This document shows positions 10,967 through 38,704 of a stretch of 64,000 nucleotides of DNA, piece after piece. Both the position numbers and the translations under genes were made by a program. This DNA is from Candidatus Electrothrix aarhusensis. GTDB taxonomy: Bacteria; Desulfobacterota; Desulfobulbia; Desulfobulbales; Desulfobulbaceae. The stretch is from positions 1 to 64,000 of the forward strand of contig MTKO01000120.1 in assembly GCA_004028505.1 (NCBI GenBank), read 5' to 3'. Numbering within the stretch: position 1 is the first letter of the stretch; each line of letters begins with the position of its first letter. The notes under the pieces were generated by a model that saw only the letters and a list, made by a program, of their open reading frames with translations, ran no database searches and was not told where the DNA came from.

Positions 10967-13068
10967 TTAGAGGCGGGCTTCTTCTGCCAACCACACCGAA
11001 ACTGTGTCCCGTTTCCCCCGACTGTCCACCAAGGTAATCTGGGTCAATCCCGGACCTTGAGGTGTATACGAGGTGATTGCCTCCTTATGTTCCCGGCCCA
11101 GCGGTCGCCCGTTGACCAGCCAGTGAAAGGGCGGGATGCCGCCCTGGGATTTGAGGGCAAGCAGGGGATCTTTATCCAGCTGCATGGTGCTGCCGTCCAC
11201 CGGGAAGTAGATCCGTGGTTTGCTTGCTTCCTGCCCCGTCCCTGCTGTTCGGGAAAACCATTGCAGATGCCGAGGCAGCTGATTATGGCGGACCGTGAGA
11301 ACCTCGGCAGGAATGCGGTTAGTTACTCGCTTATTCTCCCCTTGATTTCTTTGCAGCTCCTGGATTGTATTTAAAGCGGCAAAGACCCGAAACAACACCG
11401 GCACAGCTGAGTTCGCGCCCGTGGTCTCCTTGCCATAGCCCCAATCAGGGCGACCGATCCAGATACCCACCGTATGGTCAGGGGTATAGCCTAATGCCCA
11501 GGCATCTCGGTAACCGTATGAGGTCCCGGTTTTATAGCGAATCTTTCTGCCCCGAATGCCCTTGGACACCACCCCTGAGCGGGGCGGTCGGGTGCGGAGA
11601 ATATCATCCACATACCAGGCAGCTGCTCTGGAGAGCATTTTCTGGCTGGAAGGGATGGGAGCGTCTGGACTGAAAGAAAGGGGTTTGTATTGCCCCTTGT
11701 CAGCAAGGGCCGCATAGAGGGCGGTCAGTTCGACCAAGCTTGCTGCAGTACCTCCCAGGGCCAGAGAAAGACCGGGTGGCCTGTCTGGGTCAACAGCAAG
11801 ACCGAGTCCGGCAAAGCGGGACAAAAGGCGTTGTGGGCCGATTCGCTCTAGCACCTGCACAGCGGGCAGGTTTAGCGAACGTTGCAGGGCCTCGCGGACA
11901 GAAACCCATCCCTGATAGCGACCGTCAAAATTACCCGGTCCGTAGTTGCCAAAGCGGGTCGGGCGATCCAGGATTCCGGTTTCTGGATGAAGAAAGCCCT
12001 GTTCAAAGGCCATCCCGTAGATAAAGGGTTTAAGGGCAGAGCTGGAGAACGTCGGGCCCTGGTCAGGTCAATTCGATTGGACCAAAAATTTCCTGAACCG
12101 ACATGGGCCAGCACTCTGCGACCCTGATTATCCACCACTAAAATGGCCAAGGTTTTCTTACCGTCGGCACCCAGTCTGTCCTGGGCCTGCTGAGCAATGG
12201 TTTCCAGTTGCCCTTGGAGCGGCCTGACCAACGAGGTCCTGATTTCCTCTTGATCCGGGTAACGAGAAGCAAGGCGTTGGCTCAGATGCGGGGCCAAGAT
12301 TGGGGTTGGGCTTCGTTTTTGCGGGACCGATTGTTCGCTCCCCAATTTCACCTGCTCCGCTGTCAATAGCCCTTCCTTATGCAGGCGGTGGAGAAAGTTA
12401 TTTCTCGCTGCCACGGCCTGCTTATGCTGACGGTCCGGTCGCCGCCGTTCCGGGGACTGGGGCAGGCTAATCAGCAGGGCAGCCTGGGACGGGGTGATTC
12501 GGGCGGCGGTTTTTTGAAAATAAAAGCGACAGGCCGCCTCAATCCCTTCGATATTGCCGCCGTAGGGCGTCAGGGTAAGATAGGTTGCCAGAATTCCCTC
12601 TTTGCTGAGCCGCTGTTCTAGGCGCAGAGCCTGAATCATTTCAAAGAGTTTTCCCCAGAGAGTGCGAGGATGAGGGCGAAGCAGGCGCACGGTCTGCATG
12701 GTGATGGTGGAGGCACCCGACACCACTCGACCCTGGCTGATGAACTGAAAAAAGGCCCGGCTCATGGCAAGGGGATCTACTCCGTGATGGGACCAGAATC
12801 GTTTATCCTCACAGGCCAGCAGGAGGCGAATAAACTCTGGATCGACTGCCATGTTGCCACCTTTGCTTTCCAGATGGGCAGGCAGACGCCAATAACCGTC
12901 CTTAGTGGTAAAGAGGCGGAGCAGCTTGCCGTTGCGGTCCACGACCTTGGTGGAGCAGGGGGGTGGAAAAGCTTCCGGCAGGGGCGAGGGCAGGAACAAG
13001 AAGAGGTGCAGGATGACACAACCTGTTATTAGAACCAGAGCGGAAAGAACGAGGAGGGTCTTTTTCAT
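10967..13068 (-). CDS. pbpC: penicillin-binding protein 1C (frame break at the transpeptidase serine)
   Basis: A bifunctional class A PBP that polymerises lipid II and cross-links peptidoglycan in the periplasm. It has an N-terminal signal anchor (LLVLSALVLITGCVILHLFLF), the glycosyltransferase motif CEDKRFWSHHGVDPLA (E87 catalytic) and GASTITMQ. The transpeptidase domain has KTGTSYGYRDAW, and a C-terminal PBP1C domain follows. The frame is broken at about 12042: the upstream frame ends RARRSP, and the downstream frame resumes SALKPFIYGMAFEQG, which carries the catalytic SxxK. One extra base (GG instead of G) restores RSPGSALKP and a 700-residue protein. If real, the break would remove only the transpeptidase. 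Confidence 0.85.
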
Positions 13069-23472: not shown

Positions 23473-24269
23473 TTACTCTGTAGGAGGCGAAAAATGCTCT
23501 CCAGACTCGGGCGGAAATCGTTTTCTGTTGATCGCTGCCGCCATACAGGCAGCCCCGAATCCGTTGTCGATATTAACCACAGCCATTCCGGAAGCACAGC
23601 TGTTGAGCATGCCGAGCAGGGCTGAAAAGCCGCCTGCCCCGGTTCCATAGCCAATGGAACTGGGCACGGCAATCACCGGTGCTGGGGTTATACCTGCCAC
23701 CACTGAGGGCAAAGCCCCTTCCATACCAGCCACCACGATCAGAACAGAGGCCTGCTGAAGCCGTTCTCCGTGAGCAAGAATACGGTGGATGCCAGCGACT
23801 CCAGCATCATACAAGGTTTCGACCGAATGACCGAAATATTTAAGGCAGAGCCGTGCTTCCTCGGCAACCGGCATATCAGAGGTGCCTGCTGTCACTATCA
23901 TTACAGTTCCTCTGCTGATGTTTTCGGGGATATACTCTTCGTTGCCGGTGAGCAAACCAGAGGTCTTCTGGTACCTTATTCCCTTAACCCGCTCACAGAC
24001 TTGGTCTGCCTTACGTTGGTCAACACGGGTGGCTAACACCACGGTCGGACGCTTGAGCATGGCCTGAAGAATGTCTACCAGCTGATCCACGGTTTTGCTT
24101 TCACCGAAAACAGCTTCAGGGAGTCCAGTGCGGAGAATGCGGTGATGATCCAGACGAGCTGCATCCAATACTTCCACCGGCGGTAGGCGTATTTTTTTCA
24201 AGGCCTGTTCAGGTTTATTCTTCCGTTTTTCACTCGTTGCAGTAAAGTGAAAAGTTCTTGTTCATTCAT
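23473..24269 (-). CDS. larB: LarB, nickel-pincer cofactor biosynthesis (one frame break)
   Basis: LarB carboxylates and hydrolyses nicotinic acid adenine dinucleotide, the first step to the nickel-pincer nucleotide of lactate racemase-type enzymes. Recognised by DHHRILRTGLPEAVFGE, TAGTSDMPVAEEA, DAGVAGIHRIL, VVAGMEGALPSVVAG and a terminal NIDNGFGAA, the PurE-like domain with the LarB N-terminal extension. The first 19 codons (MNEQELFTLLQRVKNGRINL) lie in another frame. One base added at about 24210 (GG for G) joins them to QALKKIRLPPVE and gives 265 residues. It lies upstream of secDF on the same strand; larC and larE are not in the window. Confidence 0.88.
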
Positions 24270-24524
24270 AGATTCATGTTCTGTGGTAGGATGGGATAAT
24301 CAAAAAGACAGCTGCAAGAGACAACGAGGGGAGACACCGGAGAGAGACAAACATGTCGTAGGTCCAGATTTTCTCTGTCCCAACAAAAATATGTTGTTTC
24401 TTCAGCTTCTTCGCAGCAAAGAAGACGGATTCCAGTAGCCATGTAGCGATTATCCTTGTATACTTTAAAAGTATGCGTGTAAATATATAAGTATAATCAA
24501 TAATCATTCTTTGACCGCTTTACC

Positions 24525-31339: not shown

Positions 31340-31653
31340 ATGAAAATGTCAGATGACGATATAAAAAAAAAGATCCTCTTGGAGCCTGATTATCTTCTCG
31401 AACGGATAGATAACGAGGTGGCAGTATACCACCCCACCCTTACGACATCGCTTTATCTGAATGAGACCGGAGCCTTATCTGGGAACTCTGTGACGGACAG
31501 AGGAGCACGGCGGATATAATTGATATCTTGGGAGAGATCTACCAGGAAAGTCGCCAACAGGTAGCTAAAGACGTGATAAATATCATTGCCCGCTTAGTGG
31601 AGAACAACATCGCTCGCCTGCAGGATCAAGCAGAAGACTGCGTAGAAGGCTGA
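31340..31653 (+). CDS. HPr-rel-A system PqqD family protein (one frame break)
   Basis: A 104-residue PqqD-like winged-helix protein after correction. The upstream frame reads LLERIDNEVAVYHPTLTTSLYLNETGAL. One A added at about 31477 gives IWELCDGQRSTADIIDILGEIY and then QQVAKDVINIIARLVENNIA. This LN-TG-LIWELCDG core is the PqqD signature. Known PqqD-fold proteins bind peptides for modifying enzymes. It lies 10 bases before an HprK-related kinase, the partner expected for the HPr-rel-A gene set. Confidence 0.75.
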
Positions 31654-31663
31654 GCAGAACTTT

Positions 31664-32586
31664 ATGCTCCCTCTACATCCTGTCCATACTATCTATACTG
31701 TTGACTTTGCCGGACTGTCTGTACCCATCCGTTGCGACAATAGAGAGGCCCTTGCGTTTCTTGAATTTCTTTTTGGAGATCTGCACGGATCGCCAAGAGC
31801 CCCCTCTCTAGGCATCCCTCTTGGCACCTCTCTTCATACTGAGGATACAGCAGCGACTCTGATAATCTCATTAACTGAGGGAGAAGAATATACCTTGCCG
31901 ACAGCAGCGGCCCCCTGTTTACCGGCAGCCTAAACGTTCAATTTACTGCCGTCCTTTTTGATCAGGTTATTTTTCACCTACTCAACCATATGGAAGACGG
32001 CGTTGCCCTGCATAGCGGAGCGGTTGTTTATCAGGACAAAACAATTTTATTACCGGGCCAAAGCGGCTCCGGCAAGAGTACGGTTTCTGCCTGGCTGACC
32101 TCTAATCACAGCTCCTGTCGCTGTTCTTATCTGACCGATGAACTGGTCGTGCTGCCGGAAAATGACTTGGGCTCGGTTGTTCCCTTTCCCCGCCCCCTCT
32201 GTATCAAAGCGGGGGCTAGTGCTACCATCCGAGCAATCATACCGAAGAATGGCGAAGAACAAATTCTTGCCGATAAACAAGGAGATGTGGTGCCGCACAG
32301 GTTACTTAACCCTGATTTTCCCTTCCTTGTTCCGCCCGTCTCTCTCATTCTTTTTCCGACATATCAAGCTGGTTCGTCTCTCCAAATCGAAAAAATATCT
32401 CCGGCCCGTACATCGGCCCTGCTCATGACCTGCGATGTCAATGCCCGTAATCTGGCCGATCATGGTTTTCGGCAGCTTGTTCAGCTTGCCCGCTCAACCC
32501 CTGCCTATCGAATCACTTACAGCAGCTTTGCCGAGTTCAACAAGCTGCTGCCCGATCTTTTTGCCCAGCAGGACGGATCTGCATGA
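31664..32586 (+). CDS. HprK-related kinase A (one frame break)
   Basis: A 307-residue P-loop protein related to the C-terminal domain of HPr kinase. The core contains LHSGAVVYQDKTILLPGQSGSGKST (Walker A GQSGSGKST) and YLTDELVVL, the HprK-type acidic strand. The first 80 codons lie in another frame; one base added at about 31898 joins GEEYTL to DSSGPLFTGSLNVQFTAVLFDQ. It overlaps the following gene by four bases (ATGA). HPr itself is not encoded nearby, so the phosphorylated target is unknown. Confidence 0.78.
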
Positions 32587-33746
32587 TCTGCATGATTCGA
32601 AAAATTCTCTCGCTCTGCGCTCGCAATAGCGGCCACCAGATTATGTACAGCCGGCTGGAGCAGACCCTACTCTCCTTTCAGGCGACAGCAGGCGCTGATT
32701 CATGGAACCGGCTTCTATACGAGGCTGAACAACAGGGAGTAGCCCCTCTCCTTCATCATCATAGCCGACGAATCGATTTTCAATTTCCTCAAGATTTTCG
32801 CCGCCTATTGCATAGCCTGTACCTGCGTAGCAGGCAGGCAAATACGGTCCGCAACAAAGCTGTTATTGAGATTCTCGCCCGCTATGATGCCGCCAACATC
32901 CCTGTGCTGGCGATCAAGGGCATTGCCCTCTGCAATTTTCTCTATGAGGAACCCGGCTTACGTCCCATGCGAGATATCGACCTGCTGGTCAGCGAAAGTA
33001 ACCTTGCTGCTGCACAAGAAATACTTCTTGAGCTTGATTATCTGCCACCAGAACAGCACGATATCCCTGAAGACTATTACCACCTTCCCCCTCTGGTAAA
33101 AACAATTGCGGGGCTACCGCTAACCATTGAGCTGCACCGCAATTTGCTGCCCTTTCATCCCCGCTATCCGCTCTGGCCACTGGAAAAATCATATGCCGAG
33201 AGCCGGAGTTTTATGATCAACGGCATGACAGCTCGTACCCTTTCTCTTGAGGACACGATGTGGTATGTTTATCTGCACGGTTTTCAGGCTCCCTTGACGT
33301 ATGAACCCTTCAGGTTGGTTCATGCTGCCGATATGGTCAGTCTTGTTGAAAAGTATTCTGAGCAGATTAACTGGAAACTCTTGCTGAAACATTGGTCCGC
33401 CGCGACCGATGTTCTTTCATGTTTCCATAGCCTGACCCCGTTGCAGGAGGAGGTGATCAGCCGCTGTAACCTACCTGTCGAAAAGCAGCAGAATCAAGCT
33501 GACCGTGTTGTTGGCCAACCCTATCAAGGTTGGCCGCAACGCCTCCTTAAAGATACCAGTAAAGGTAAACGCCCTCAGCTTATTTGGGATACCCTCCTGC
33601 CGTCCCGCTGGTGGATGCAGGTTTACTATGGGCATCTCAGCGGATATGGGTATTGGAAAGCCCGCTTTTTTGAACATCCCCGTGAAGTTTGGCGCTGGAT
33701 AAAGGGGTATCTCCTGCTGTACATAAAGACGAGAAAAAAAGAGTAG
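32583..33746 (+). CDS. nucleotidyltransferase family protein (NTP_transf_5-like)
   Basis: A 387-residue protein of the pol-beta nucleotidyltransferase type seen beside HprK-related kinases. The diagnostic strand is AIKGIALCNFLYEEPGLRPMRDIDLLV, where RDIDLLV carries the metal-binding aspartates. It is followed by LTIELHRNLL and a helical C-terminal half (SLEDTMWYVYLHGF). It starts within the end of the kinase gene (ATGA overlap), so translation is coupled. The transferred nucleotide and acceptor are unknown. Confidence 0.8.
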   Translation: MICMIRKILSLCARNSGHQIMYSRLEQTLLSFQATAGADSWNRLLYEAEQQGVAPLLHHHSRRIDFQFPQDFRRLLHSLYLRSRQANTVRNKAVIEILARYDAANIPVLAIKGIALCNFLYEEPGLRPMRDIDLLVSESNLAAAQEILLELDYLPPEQHDIPEDYYHLPPLVKTIAGLPLTIELHRNLLPFHPRYPLWPLEKSYAESRSFMINGMTARTLSLEDTMWYVYLHGFQAPLTYEPFRLVHAADMVSLVEKYSEQINWKLLLKHWSAATDVLSCFHSLTPLQEEVISRCNLPVEKQQNQADRVVGQPYQGWPQRLLKDTSKGKRPQLIWDTLLPSRWWMQVYYGHLSGYGYWKARFFEHPREVWRWIKGYLLLYIKTRKKE

Positions 33747-33923
33747 TAGTCACCCGTATTTTCAAAAGGATATTTCACAAGGACATAGAGCTAGGTAACT
33801 TCCTGTTTTTAGTCTATCACCTTTCGTTTTTTGACGTTTATTGACACCCAGCACCCTTTGAGGGATAATGTGGAGATAAGCAAAAAAAGCTGTCTTCAAT
33901 AAAACATAATACATAACAAGAGC

Positions 33924-34579
33924 ATGCAAAAAAATAATCAGGCGAAAATTCCCCAAGAGCAGATAAATCAGGCAGAAGATCTACTCTCCGAAAAATTGCC
34001 GCAGGAACGGTCGCTTTGGCCGGTTATTCAGCATTGCCGGACAAATGGACAACGCCCCTTGTTGAGTTTGGCGCCCTCCCGGCTCATGCAACAACCAGCG
34101 GCCTGGAAGAGCTGATTGAGCTTGTTGAACAACGCTATCAGGAAGGAATTGCCGAAGAAGCCGCTGAGGAAGAAGTTGTCGATAAAGTCGTTCAGGAAGC
34201 AGCTTCTTCCACTCAGGAAACGGCTGCTCCCGAAGCTGCCGCCTCAGAAGCAACAACGAGCAACAACCTGCGGGGTTTTAGCAACGAATTAACGATTCAG
34301 GACAGTGGTGCAGTTATGTCCTGCGACAAGGTCCTCCAGCATAAAATCGTTTTCCCGAAACTTGGGCCGCAGTACGGGAGTTCCTTATTGCTGGTCTGGA
34401 GTGACGGCAATGAGCTTTATGTTCCTGATTCCAAAAATATGGCTATGGAAGGAAATGAGAATGACTATAGGAAATACCAGCCAGGGGGAGCATACAGCGG
34501 CAATAATTCGGATATCCCCACTATGGAAGTGTATGCAAAAAGAGGGACCCATCCGTCCAGCGTAACGCTTTACTATTAG
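33924..34579 (+). CDS. Tat-signal secreted protein, unknown function (one frame break)
   Basis: After adding one G at about 33971 the protein reads MQKNNQAKIPQEQINQ, then GRRSTLRKIAAGTVALAGYSALPDK. That is a twin-arginine signal with a hydrophobic core, followed by LPAHA-TTS, a plausible signal-peptidase site. Next comes a 75-residue low-complexity linker rich in E, A, S and T, and a 95-residue C-terminal domain containing VFPKLGPQYGSSLLLVWSDGNELYV. I recognise no family. It lies 177 bases after the PqqD/HprK/nucleotidyltransferase genes on the same strand and could be their client; this is a guess from position. Confidence 0.6.
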
Positions 34580-37867: not shown

Positions 37868-38704
37868 GGATAATTACGGAATGGTTATGGGTTGAGATGA
37901 TGATCGGATTTTTTTTGGGCGTATGTATATATGCTGGTACAGAATAAACGTAACCTGCTGTCACGTCAAGGGAGTGTCGTGGGGTGGTGGGGATTATTGC
38001 GGACGGTTGCGGATTGCGGGGGGATTTTTGGGTCTTTGGTGCAGAGGCGATGAACAGCAAGGGCAGACACAGGGGTCTGCCCCTACGGGCTTAATACCCT
38101 CTTCATAGGGTGGGGTGCTGCAACTGTCACCCTTTTTTCTCTTTTAACATCAAAGAGCTGCAAGGCACTTTCCGCGAACCCCTGTCAAACCGGTTGCAAC
38201 ACCCATTACAACAGGCCTCATATTACCTCTTTTTATAATAATTTCAAGCACTGCGAACCTATTTTTTGTCTTTTCCATGCAAGTCACTGTATCAAGGTGC
38301 TTATTCGCCATAAAAATGTATTTTCCAAAATGTCTGCTTGAGGTTCGCGCAGAGAAAGATCGAATGACGAAAATTTCCCCTCTGCTTCCTTTGCCTCCTT
38401 TACATCACGCCGCATCAACGAAATGCGCAAGATGCCTCTACTTCCGCTCCCCCTGCCTTCAGCAAACACCTTGACGCATTCTCCGTCTAGCCCGCAAAAT
38501 AGGGAAGAGGTGCCTGAAAAAGCAAAAAGGAACTTGTTCTCTCACCTCACCCTCATTCCGCTATTGCATAATTTCCCTCACCTTTGTACACTCCTGAAGG
38601 CAAAATCCTGATCAGTCGCAGCATTTTCCGGCAAGATGCAGTTGCCGATTCCTCGACAAAGAAAAAAAGCGATGATCATTGAATATAATTCTCATAATAA
38701 CAGT
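37868..38704. other. intergenic region with a REP-like hairpin
   Basis: No supported gene between hemL and trpCF, which are divergent. A palindrome sits at 38061-38082. A stem with a T6 run (38112-38139, GGGTG...CACCCTTTTTT) could be a plus-strand terminator. Several short open frames around 38280-38620 show no ribosome site or family pattern. Confidence 0.4.
38061..38082. repeat. REP-like palindrome
   Basis: GGGCAGAC and GTCTGCCC form an eight-base stem around a six-base loop, followed by CCTACGGGC. GGGCAGACACAGGGGTCTGCCCC-type hairpins are known as dispersed REP elements in many bacteria, usually mobilised by RayT transposases. A RayT gene lies in this window at 49988. Confidence 0.5.

Follow-up and report, generated by a model that had tools for sequence, protein, structure and literature searches.

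RiPP recognition elements (RREs, where RiPP stands for ribosomally synthesised and post-translationally modified peptide) are familiar from the pathways that make peptide natural products. The closest described systems to the locus discussed here are two pathways of this kind. The first makes the linear polyphosphorylated peptides (LPP) of Bacillota, with LppA, K, B, S, D and N (Popov et al. 2026, PMC13381572); its kinase LppK adds a chain of phosphates to Ser3 of the core peptide, and a signal-peptidase-like enzyme sets this core free (PMC13381572). The second is that of paeninodin and pseudomycoidin (PadeK/PsmK, PsmN and a B1 RRE), in which a lasso peptide is phosphorylated by PadeK on its C-terminal Ser and PsmN puts a hexose on the phospho-Ser (PMC9266682, PMC8498205). 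Here we analyse a 64,000-nucleotide stretch of Candidatus Electrothrix aarhusensis (contig MTKO01000120.1, hereafter the window), and within it a cassette of three genes, coding for a PqqD-type protein, an HprK-like kinase and a nucleotidyltransferase (NTase), followed by a gene for a protein with a twin-arginine translocation (Tat) signal. This three-gene set, together with its pairing with an N-terminal tag shared by such Tat proteins, points to a system, not described so far, in which many different proteins are chemically marked at their front end before export. The cassette is best read as a variant RRE-HprK-NTase module that has Tat proteins as its targets and that, by analogy, would work like the LPP and paeninodin-type modifications yet belongs to neither.

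The original prediction placed these four genes in this part of the window, and all of them are present there, on the forward strand. The PqqD-type RRE gene (31340..31653) matches PF05402 with 41.3 bits on its 3' piece and is read in two frames, and the kinase gene (31664..32586) has its frame broken near 31893. The NTase gene (32583..33746), which belongs to the NTP_transf_5 family (PF14907, 142.5 bits), is intact. The gene of the putative Tat-signal client (33924..34579) is read in its ATG frame to about 33965 and then in the +1 frame, being broken in the assembly. Its signal carries a twin-arginine pair (GRRSTLRK, 33974..33979, aligned to the homologues at L063 and L064) and, in the c-region, the RRE-type motif W-T-T-P-L-V (34046..34063), a match to the pattern WxxPx[V/I/L] that appears 0 times in 100 shuffles. 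The predicted cleavage-site region LPAHA follows (34076..34099), ending in T-T-S (34091-34099), the candidate acceptors at positions +2/+3 of the mature protein. The long low-complexity linker that had drawn attention at the outset does exist (about 34103-34261), and the informative feature is instead the conserved segment KWTTPLVEFGALPAHATTSG directly before it. The mature C-terminal domain (34262..34576) is mostly beta; it is covered by a 10-row family alignment and by a model with a pLDDT (predicted local distance difference test score) of 84, and a PDB search gave no known fold for it (lowest E 0.6).

When the window protein was used as query, the paralogues returned were alike in their N-terminus only. 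The common tag of the 21 homology-derived members reads RRxxx(K/R)KxAxGxxALAGxSxLPxKWTxPVVExxxLPAHAxTSG; its W, P and PAHA are the same in all of them. A genome-wide scan with a degenerate DNA pattern (WT/S-x-P-x6-LPAHA-x-T) gave 85 stretches, mainly in Desulfobulbia and Gammaproteobacteria with some in Chloroflexota; a few of the matches (Streptomyces, Bifidobacterium, others) look like chance. W and P are invariant across the 95 non-redundant family members, whose mature sequences form 58 clusters, and the copies per genome reach 20 (G240), their genes often scattered. In G004 the tag recurs in three paralogues as a segment of 138 bases, 78-80% identical to the copy taken as reference. The mature parts, of about 100-330 residues, are not accounted for by any common Pfam family; single matches are scattered over fasciclin, cadherin-like and Ig-like domains, two matches are to a glycine-rich domain and two to DNRLRE, and several of these Pfam matches are to domains typical of surface proteins. 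Between the three tagged paralogues of G004 (L067:9583-10092 and 12057-12353) we also noticed pieces of an RVT_1 reverse transcriptase, below the Pfam cut-off, possibly what is left of a group II intron or a diversity-generating element.

Judged by their sequence, the tagged proteins are predicted Tat substrates: most members have an RR pair in the n-region, the 12 residues upstream of W have a median hydropathy of 1.66, PAHA supplies an AxA site, and G000, the window's own genome, has three TatC loci, of which one is split over two reading frames. They share the RR pair, the hydrophobic stretch and the AxA site with ordinary Tat signal peptides (TIGR01409, PF10518), but differ from these in adding an invariant WxxPx[V/I/L]...LPAHAxT[S/T] to unrelated mature parts; TIGR01409 matches just 10 of 81 tag-family members. 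Position +3 of the mature protein, which was not demanded by the scan pattern, is Ser or Thr in all 77 Tat-type matches (a 78th, L151, was set aside as chance), with Thr in 28 of them. Thr occupies position +2 in all but one of the 95 members, most of which came from a pattern that required it; of the 21 found by homology, 19 have it there, as T-S.

Co-occurrence of the Tat gene with the cassette had been set beforehand as the test of their association, and it holds in three phyla and in both search directions. Among 96 relatives within Desulfobulbia, 18 genomes carry the tag and the cassette kinase is present in 18/18 (in two of them, G025 and G047, only as truncated or broken copies), while no other genome has a strong kinase copy; the incomplete genome G005 has fragments of kinase and NTase with no tag detected. 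Among 148 Desulfobacterota, strong kinases and full tags are confined to G000 and G008, two weak partial tag matches aside. The 185 Gammaproteobacteria include three genomes with strong kinases of at least 188 bits (G240, G251, G259), all tag-bearing; the next-best kinases score at most 114 bits and sit in genomes without tag. Six of the 151 genomes of one Chloroflexota order have the tag; in each of them a kinase (at least 172 bits) is encoded adjacent to it on the same strand, no more than about 1.1 kb away. In a seventh kinase-bearing genome of this order the contig stops just upstream of PqqD. The kinase is also present in 22 of 25 further tag genomes (24 labelled gamma-/proteobacterial, one Anaerolineae). 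A comparably strong kinase is found in none of the eight genomes with chance pattern hits, where the best match (E 1.9e-28) belongs to a betaproteobacterium with a kinase-NTase locus that lacks the tag.

Tag and cassette lie within a few kb of each other in about 24 genomes, and this linkage is not chance. Most Gammaproteobacteria have an isolated cassette, with the tagged genes dispersed elsewhere, and this speaks for the view that the cassette modifies another molecule, such as a small peptide or a sugar, the Tat proteins being its functional allies and not its substrates. The known relatives of the module do act on short peptides (PMC13381572), which also speaks for such a view. We nevertheless consider this explanation unlikely: the tag carries an RRE-binding motif with conserved spacing, its subtypes pair with clades of PqqD (see below), and no other gene recurs next to the gammaproteobacterial cassettes beyond lineage synteny. 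The canonical HprK-related loci of Gammaproteobacteria (L231-L239) have no convincing tag-like protein in their short flanks. In our view it is highly probable that the cassette has the Tat proteins as its clients.

The PqqD-type protein is homologous to structurally characterised RREs. The nearest solved relatives of its family profile are the lasso RRE TbiB1 (E 3.7e-8), LppB (9x8z, E 7.3e-6), TfuB1 (E 2e-5) and PbaB1 (E 3.3e-4), of which LppB and PbaB1 bind leaders of the type [Y/W]xxPx[V/L]. In an ungapped alignment of LppB to the profile, the leader-binding residues N33, I56, Y60 and M78, whose letters match those of the LPP paper at a constant offset, fall on N41, L64, Y68 and L86, which are four of the six strictly invariant PqqD positions (hypergeometric P 0.005, a value that buried core residues could inflate). 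Counted from the predicted AHA cleavage site, the tag has W at -15, P at -12 and V/I/L at -10, which is the numbering of W-15, P-12 and L-10 in PbaA. The tags are of two subtypes, EFGALPAHATTSG and GQIALPAHATTSG, and the tree of PqqD follows them: one clade pairs with tags having F at +7 and G/A at +8, the other with tags that lack F and have I/V at +8. Both PqqD types are held by G003 and by G041, each close to its own tag subtype, and G004 has two cassettes beside two tag subtypes, the second cassette being recognised from kinase and NTase and not from PqqD. From this homology and this spacing we infer that the PqqD-type protein would bind the tag. Another PqqD-family gene of the window's genome (L001, G000:C1:85220-85423, 60.6 bits) has a weak HprK-like match about 2 kb off, at 87185.

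The kinase has the catalytic equipment expected of the HprK/lasso-kinase fold family; in the lasso kinases His-Lys-Asp-Asp is essential (PMC9266682, PMC8498205). His, the P-loop Lys and an acidic pair are invariant in 16 kinase relatives, with Glu as the second acidic residue, and in the window piece they are at 32011-32013 (His), 32074-32076 (Lys) and 32137-32142 (Asp-Glu). The DxD...E triad of the NTase, namely Asp131 and Asp133 (32973-32981) and Glu183 (33129-33131), is likewise invariant among its relatives, and its model (pLDDT 89) has a nucleotidyltransferase fold, with the small NTases 5uvd and ANT(2'')-Ia as best matches. In several lineages the kinase is fused C-terminally to a glycosyltransferase domain of family GT2 (L078:8499-10313, L079:8162-10024, L089:1913-3742, L159:4367-6775 and L195:1444-3231), and once to a GT25 domain as well; no such kinase-GT2 fusions are described in the LPP and lasso-kinase papers (PMC13381572, PMC9266682, PMC8498205). 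These fusions support a sugar as part of the mark. They also bear on the possibility that RRE and kinase serve timing or quality control, with a transient phosphorylation of the precursor governing Tat export or cleavage and leaving no lasting mark. The position of the motif inside the signal peptide agrees with such a role, as does the poor cleavage of the unphosphorylated LPP precursor (PMC13381572). The NTase as constant partner and the kinase-glycosyltransferase fusions point on the contrary to a built-up, lasting mark, and the candidate acceptor comes after the predicted cleavage site, within the mature protein, so that we hold a purely transient role to be rather unlikely.

The scenario that we favour, and consider fairly probable from sequence features and from analogy with LPP and lasso systems, is that of an RRE-guided system marking Tat-exported proteins. 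The PqqD-type protein would capture the precursor by binding WxxPx[V/I/L] late in the Tat signal peptide, in the way that leaders are bound by the RREs of lasso and LPP systems, and would offer the segment past the signal-peptidase site to the HprK-like kinase. The kinase would phosphorylate the conserved Thr-Ser/Thr at +2/+3, and the NTP_transf_5 enzyme, and in some lineages the fused glycosyltransferase, would then add a nucleotidyl or sugar group to the phosphate. The marked protein would be exported by Tat and its signal cut off at AHA, the mark perhaps serving for attachment to surface polysaccharide. The original prediction had raised the possibility of a modification of the exported protein by the cassette, and this now gains support from the co-occurrence, from WxxPx[V/I/L] in the Tat signal and from the conserved Ser/Thr. 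Phosphorylation at +2/+3 followed by further elaboration seems to us somewhat better than an even bet. The broader proposal, a multi-substrate pathway in which the Tat signal doubles as RRE leader and unrelated proteins receive one phospho- or phosphoglycosyl mark at their mature N-terminus in the cytoplasm, ahead of Tat export, we regard as evenly poised.

Several observations weigh against this scenario and should be stated. LppK did not accept Thr at S3 (PMC13381572), yet Thr is at +3 in the 28 members mentioned above; therefore either the acceptor or the preference of the enzyme must differ in these members. LppN was inactive in the heterologous LPP system (PMC13381572), and the NTase step is therefore uncertain. 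The scan pattern itself demanded W, P, LPAHA and T, so that only the remaining columns are independent evidence. The tag is present without a clear kinase in the small gammaproteobacterial genome G352 (three of the four gammaproteobacterial tag genomes have one) and in three of the 25 further tag genomes, all four being metagenome assemblies. Finally, the relatives are not mutually independent, and Fisher values on the co-occurrence ignore their relatedness.

If this scenario is correct, its implications go beyond the present locus. In three phyla or more, the recognition logic of RREs appears to be applied to secreted proteins whose mature domains are unrelated, by using the signal peptide as leader, and RRE-guided modification would thus extend from peptide natural products to protein secretion. 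It would provide a new way to mark exported proteins and a role for the orphan PqqD-HprK-NTase cassette, and the sequence by itself would be enough to predict the substrates, namely all Tat proteins that carry WxxP...LPAHAxTS. The roles of kinase and NTase become directly testable on a defined N-terminal peptide.

How the cassette stands with respect to described systems can now be stated more precisely. As in LPP, a discrete RRE, an HprK-like kinase and an NTP transferase are encoded together. The client has a conserved N-terminal motif ([Y/W]xxPxV), a highly variable C-terminus and a signal-peptidase-type cleavage site, and the Ser that is phosphorylated in LPP at position 3 after this site has a conserved Ser/Thr as its counterpart at the same place. 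In contrast to LPP, the putative clients are Tat-signal proteins, up to 20 per genome, the hosts are Gram-negative bacteria and Chloroflexota, and there are kinase-glycosyltransferase fusions. The tag, WxxPx[V/I/L]xxxxLPAHAxT[S/T], agrees with the LPP precursor, YxxPxVLxHQxIxFETxxS, in its first part only, W replacing Y and LPAHAxTS replacing HQxIxFETxxS. Neither an SpI-like (signal peptidase I-like) peptidase nor an MsbA-like exporter recurs beside 20 gammaproteobacterial and Chloroflexota cassettes, as judged from neighbour clustering and N-terminal sequences without a family scan of every neighbour. The paper on LPP (PMC13381572) makes no mention of Tat, nor of Desulfobulbia, Gammaproteobacteria or Chloroflexota. 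With paeninodin and pseudomycoidin (PMC9266682, PMC8498205) the cassette has in common an RRE whose binding site there is WxxPxL at W-15, P-12 and L-10, an HprK-like kinase, and a nucleotidyltransferase, which in that case leads to hexose on phospho-Ser; there a short peptide is modified at its C-terminal Ser, whereas the putative clients here are exported proteins. A lasso cluster proper was considered and rejected: no macrolactam cyclase (C) or B2 protease stands beside the cassettes inspected, although not every neighbour was subjected to a family scan.

The original prediction had assigned the first three genes to the HPr-rel-A set (TIGR04352, HprK_rel_A, and TIGR04353, PqqD_rel_X), and by the curated cut-offs this label is not correct. 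A related kinase and a PqqD-fold partner are present, and all 16 kinase relatives match TIGR04352 (best E 1.2e-32), but the score is 84 bits for the window piece and 81 for the full-length kinase of G003, against a cut-off of 200. TIGR04353 is matched by only one of 16 PqqD relatives at E 1e-3; the PQQ_PqqD and lasso PqqD models match more of these relatives. In the open-access literature we found nothing on HPr-rel-A, HprK-related kinase or LPAHAQT, and nothing relevant joining RRE with twin-arginine.

The presence of the cassette genes, with the NTase overlapping the kinase stop, has to be qualified for the window copy, in which the frames of three of the four genes are broken. Within 3.2 kb, the PqqD gene, the kinase gene and the Tat gene each show a single frame change, the NTase being open. 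Alignment to the same-genus genomes G003 and G006 places the PqqD break at 31472 (a G run) and the kinase break at 31893, one base missing in each, in short G/C runs. The break in the Tat gene, near 33965 and just upstream of the RR pair, is placed from the frame change alone: the ATG frame reads MQKNNQAKIPQEQINQ and the next frame reads GRRSTLRKIAAG... Three breaks among four genes over such a distance could suggest that the cassette is, in the window genome only, a decaying pseudogene set, which would be little informative on function there. We think this improbable, as the breaks that could be placed are single bases in short G/C runs, identity to the relatives is about 79-89% for the greater part of the sequence, the NTase has no break, and the second tagged Tat gene of the same genome (G000:C122, L071:9250-9957), of a different mature family, is open. 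Sequencing error is likelier than decay because the same-genus relatives are intact (their frames are open, and the Tat homologues in G003 and G006 are 82% identical and unbroken) and because further genes of the same assembly, two of them on another contig, have frame breaks. Decay, being limited to the window genome, would in any case say nothing against the system as such, and our functional claims on the cassette rest on the intact relatives and not on the broken window copies. Elsewhere in the window, a minus-strand gene (23473-24370) shows a frame change relative to G006 near 24200, a sign of either a single-base error or a shifted start.

Some features of the surroundings may be added. 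In G006, a CRISPR-like array (clustered regularly interspaced short palindromic repeats) of 19 repeats of about 37 bases, with a spacing of 70-73, stands beside a hemL-like gene downstream of the cassette (L063:14480-15806); no CRISPR-like array is present in the corresponding part of the window (38000-38700). Upstream of the Tat gene, a promoter-like match on the forward strand (TTGACA, 17, GATAAT; 33841..33869) agrees with the consensus at 11 of 12 positions and is a consensus match only, promoter-like sites in the region being about as frequent as in shuffles. This match is in the gap of 177 bases that separates the NTase from the Tat gene, and at the other end of the locus a UvrD-type helicase gene ends 35 bases before the start of the PqqD gene.

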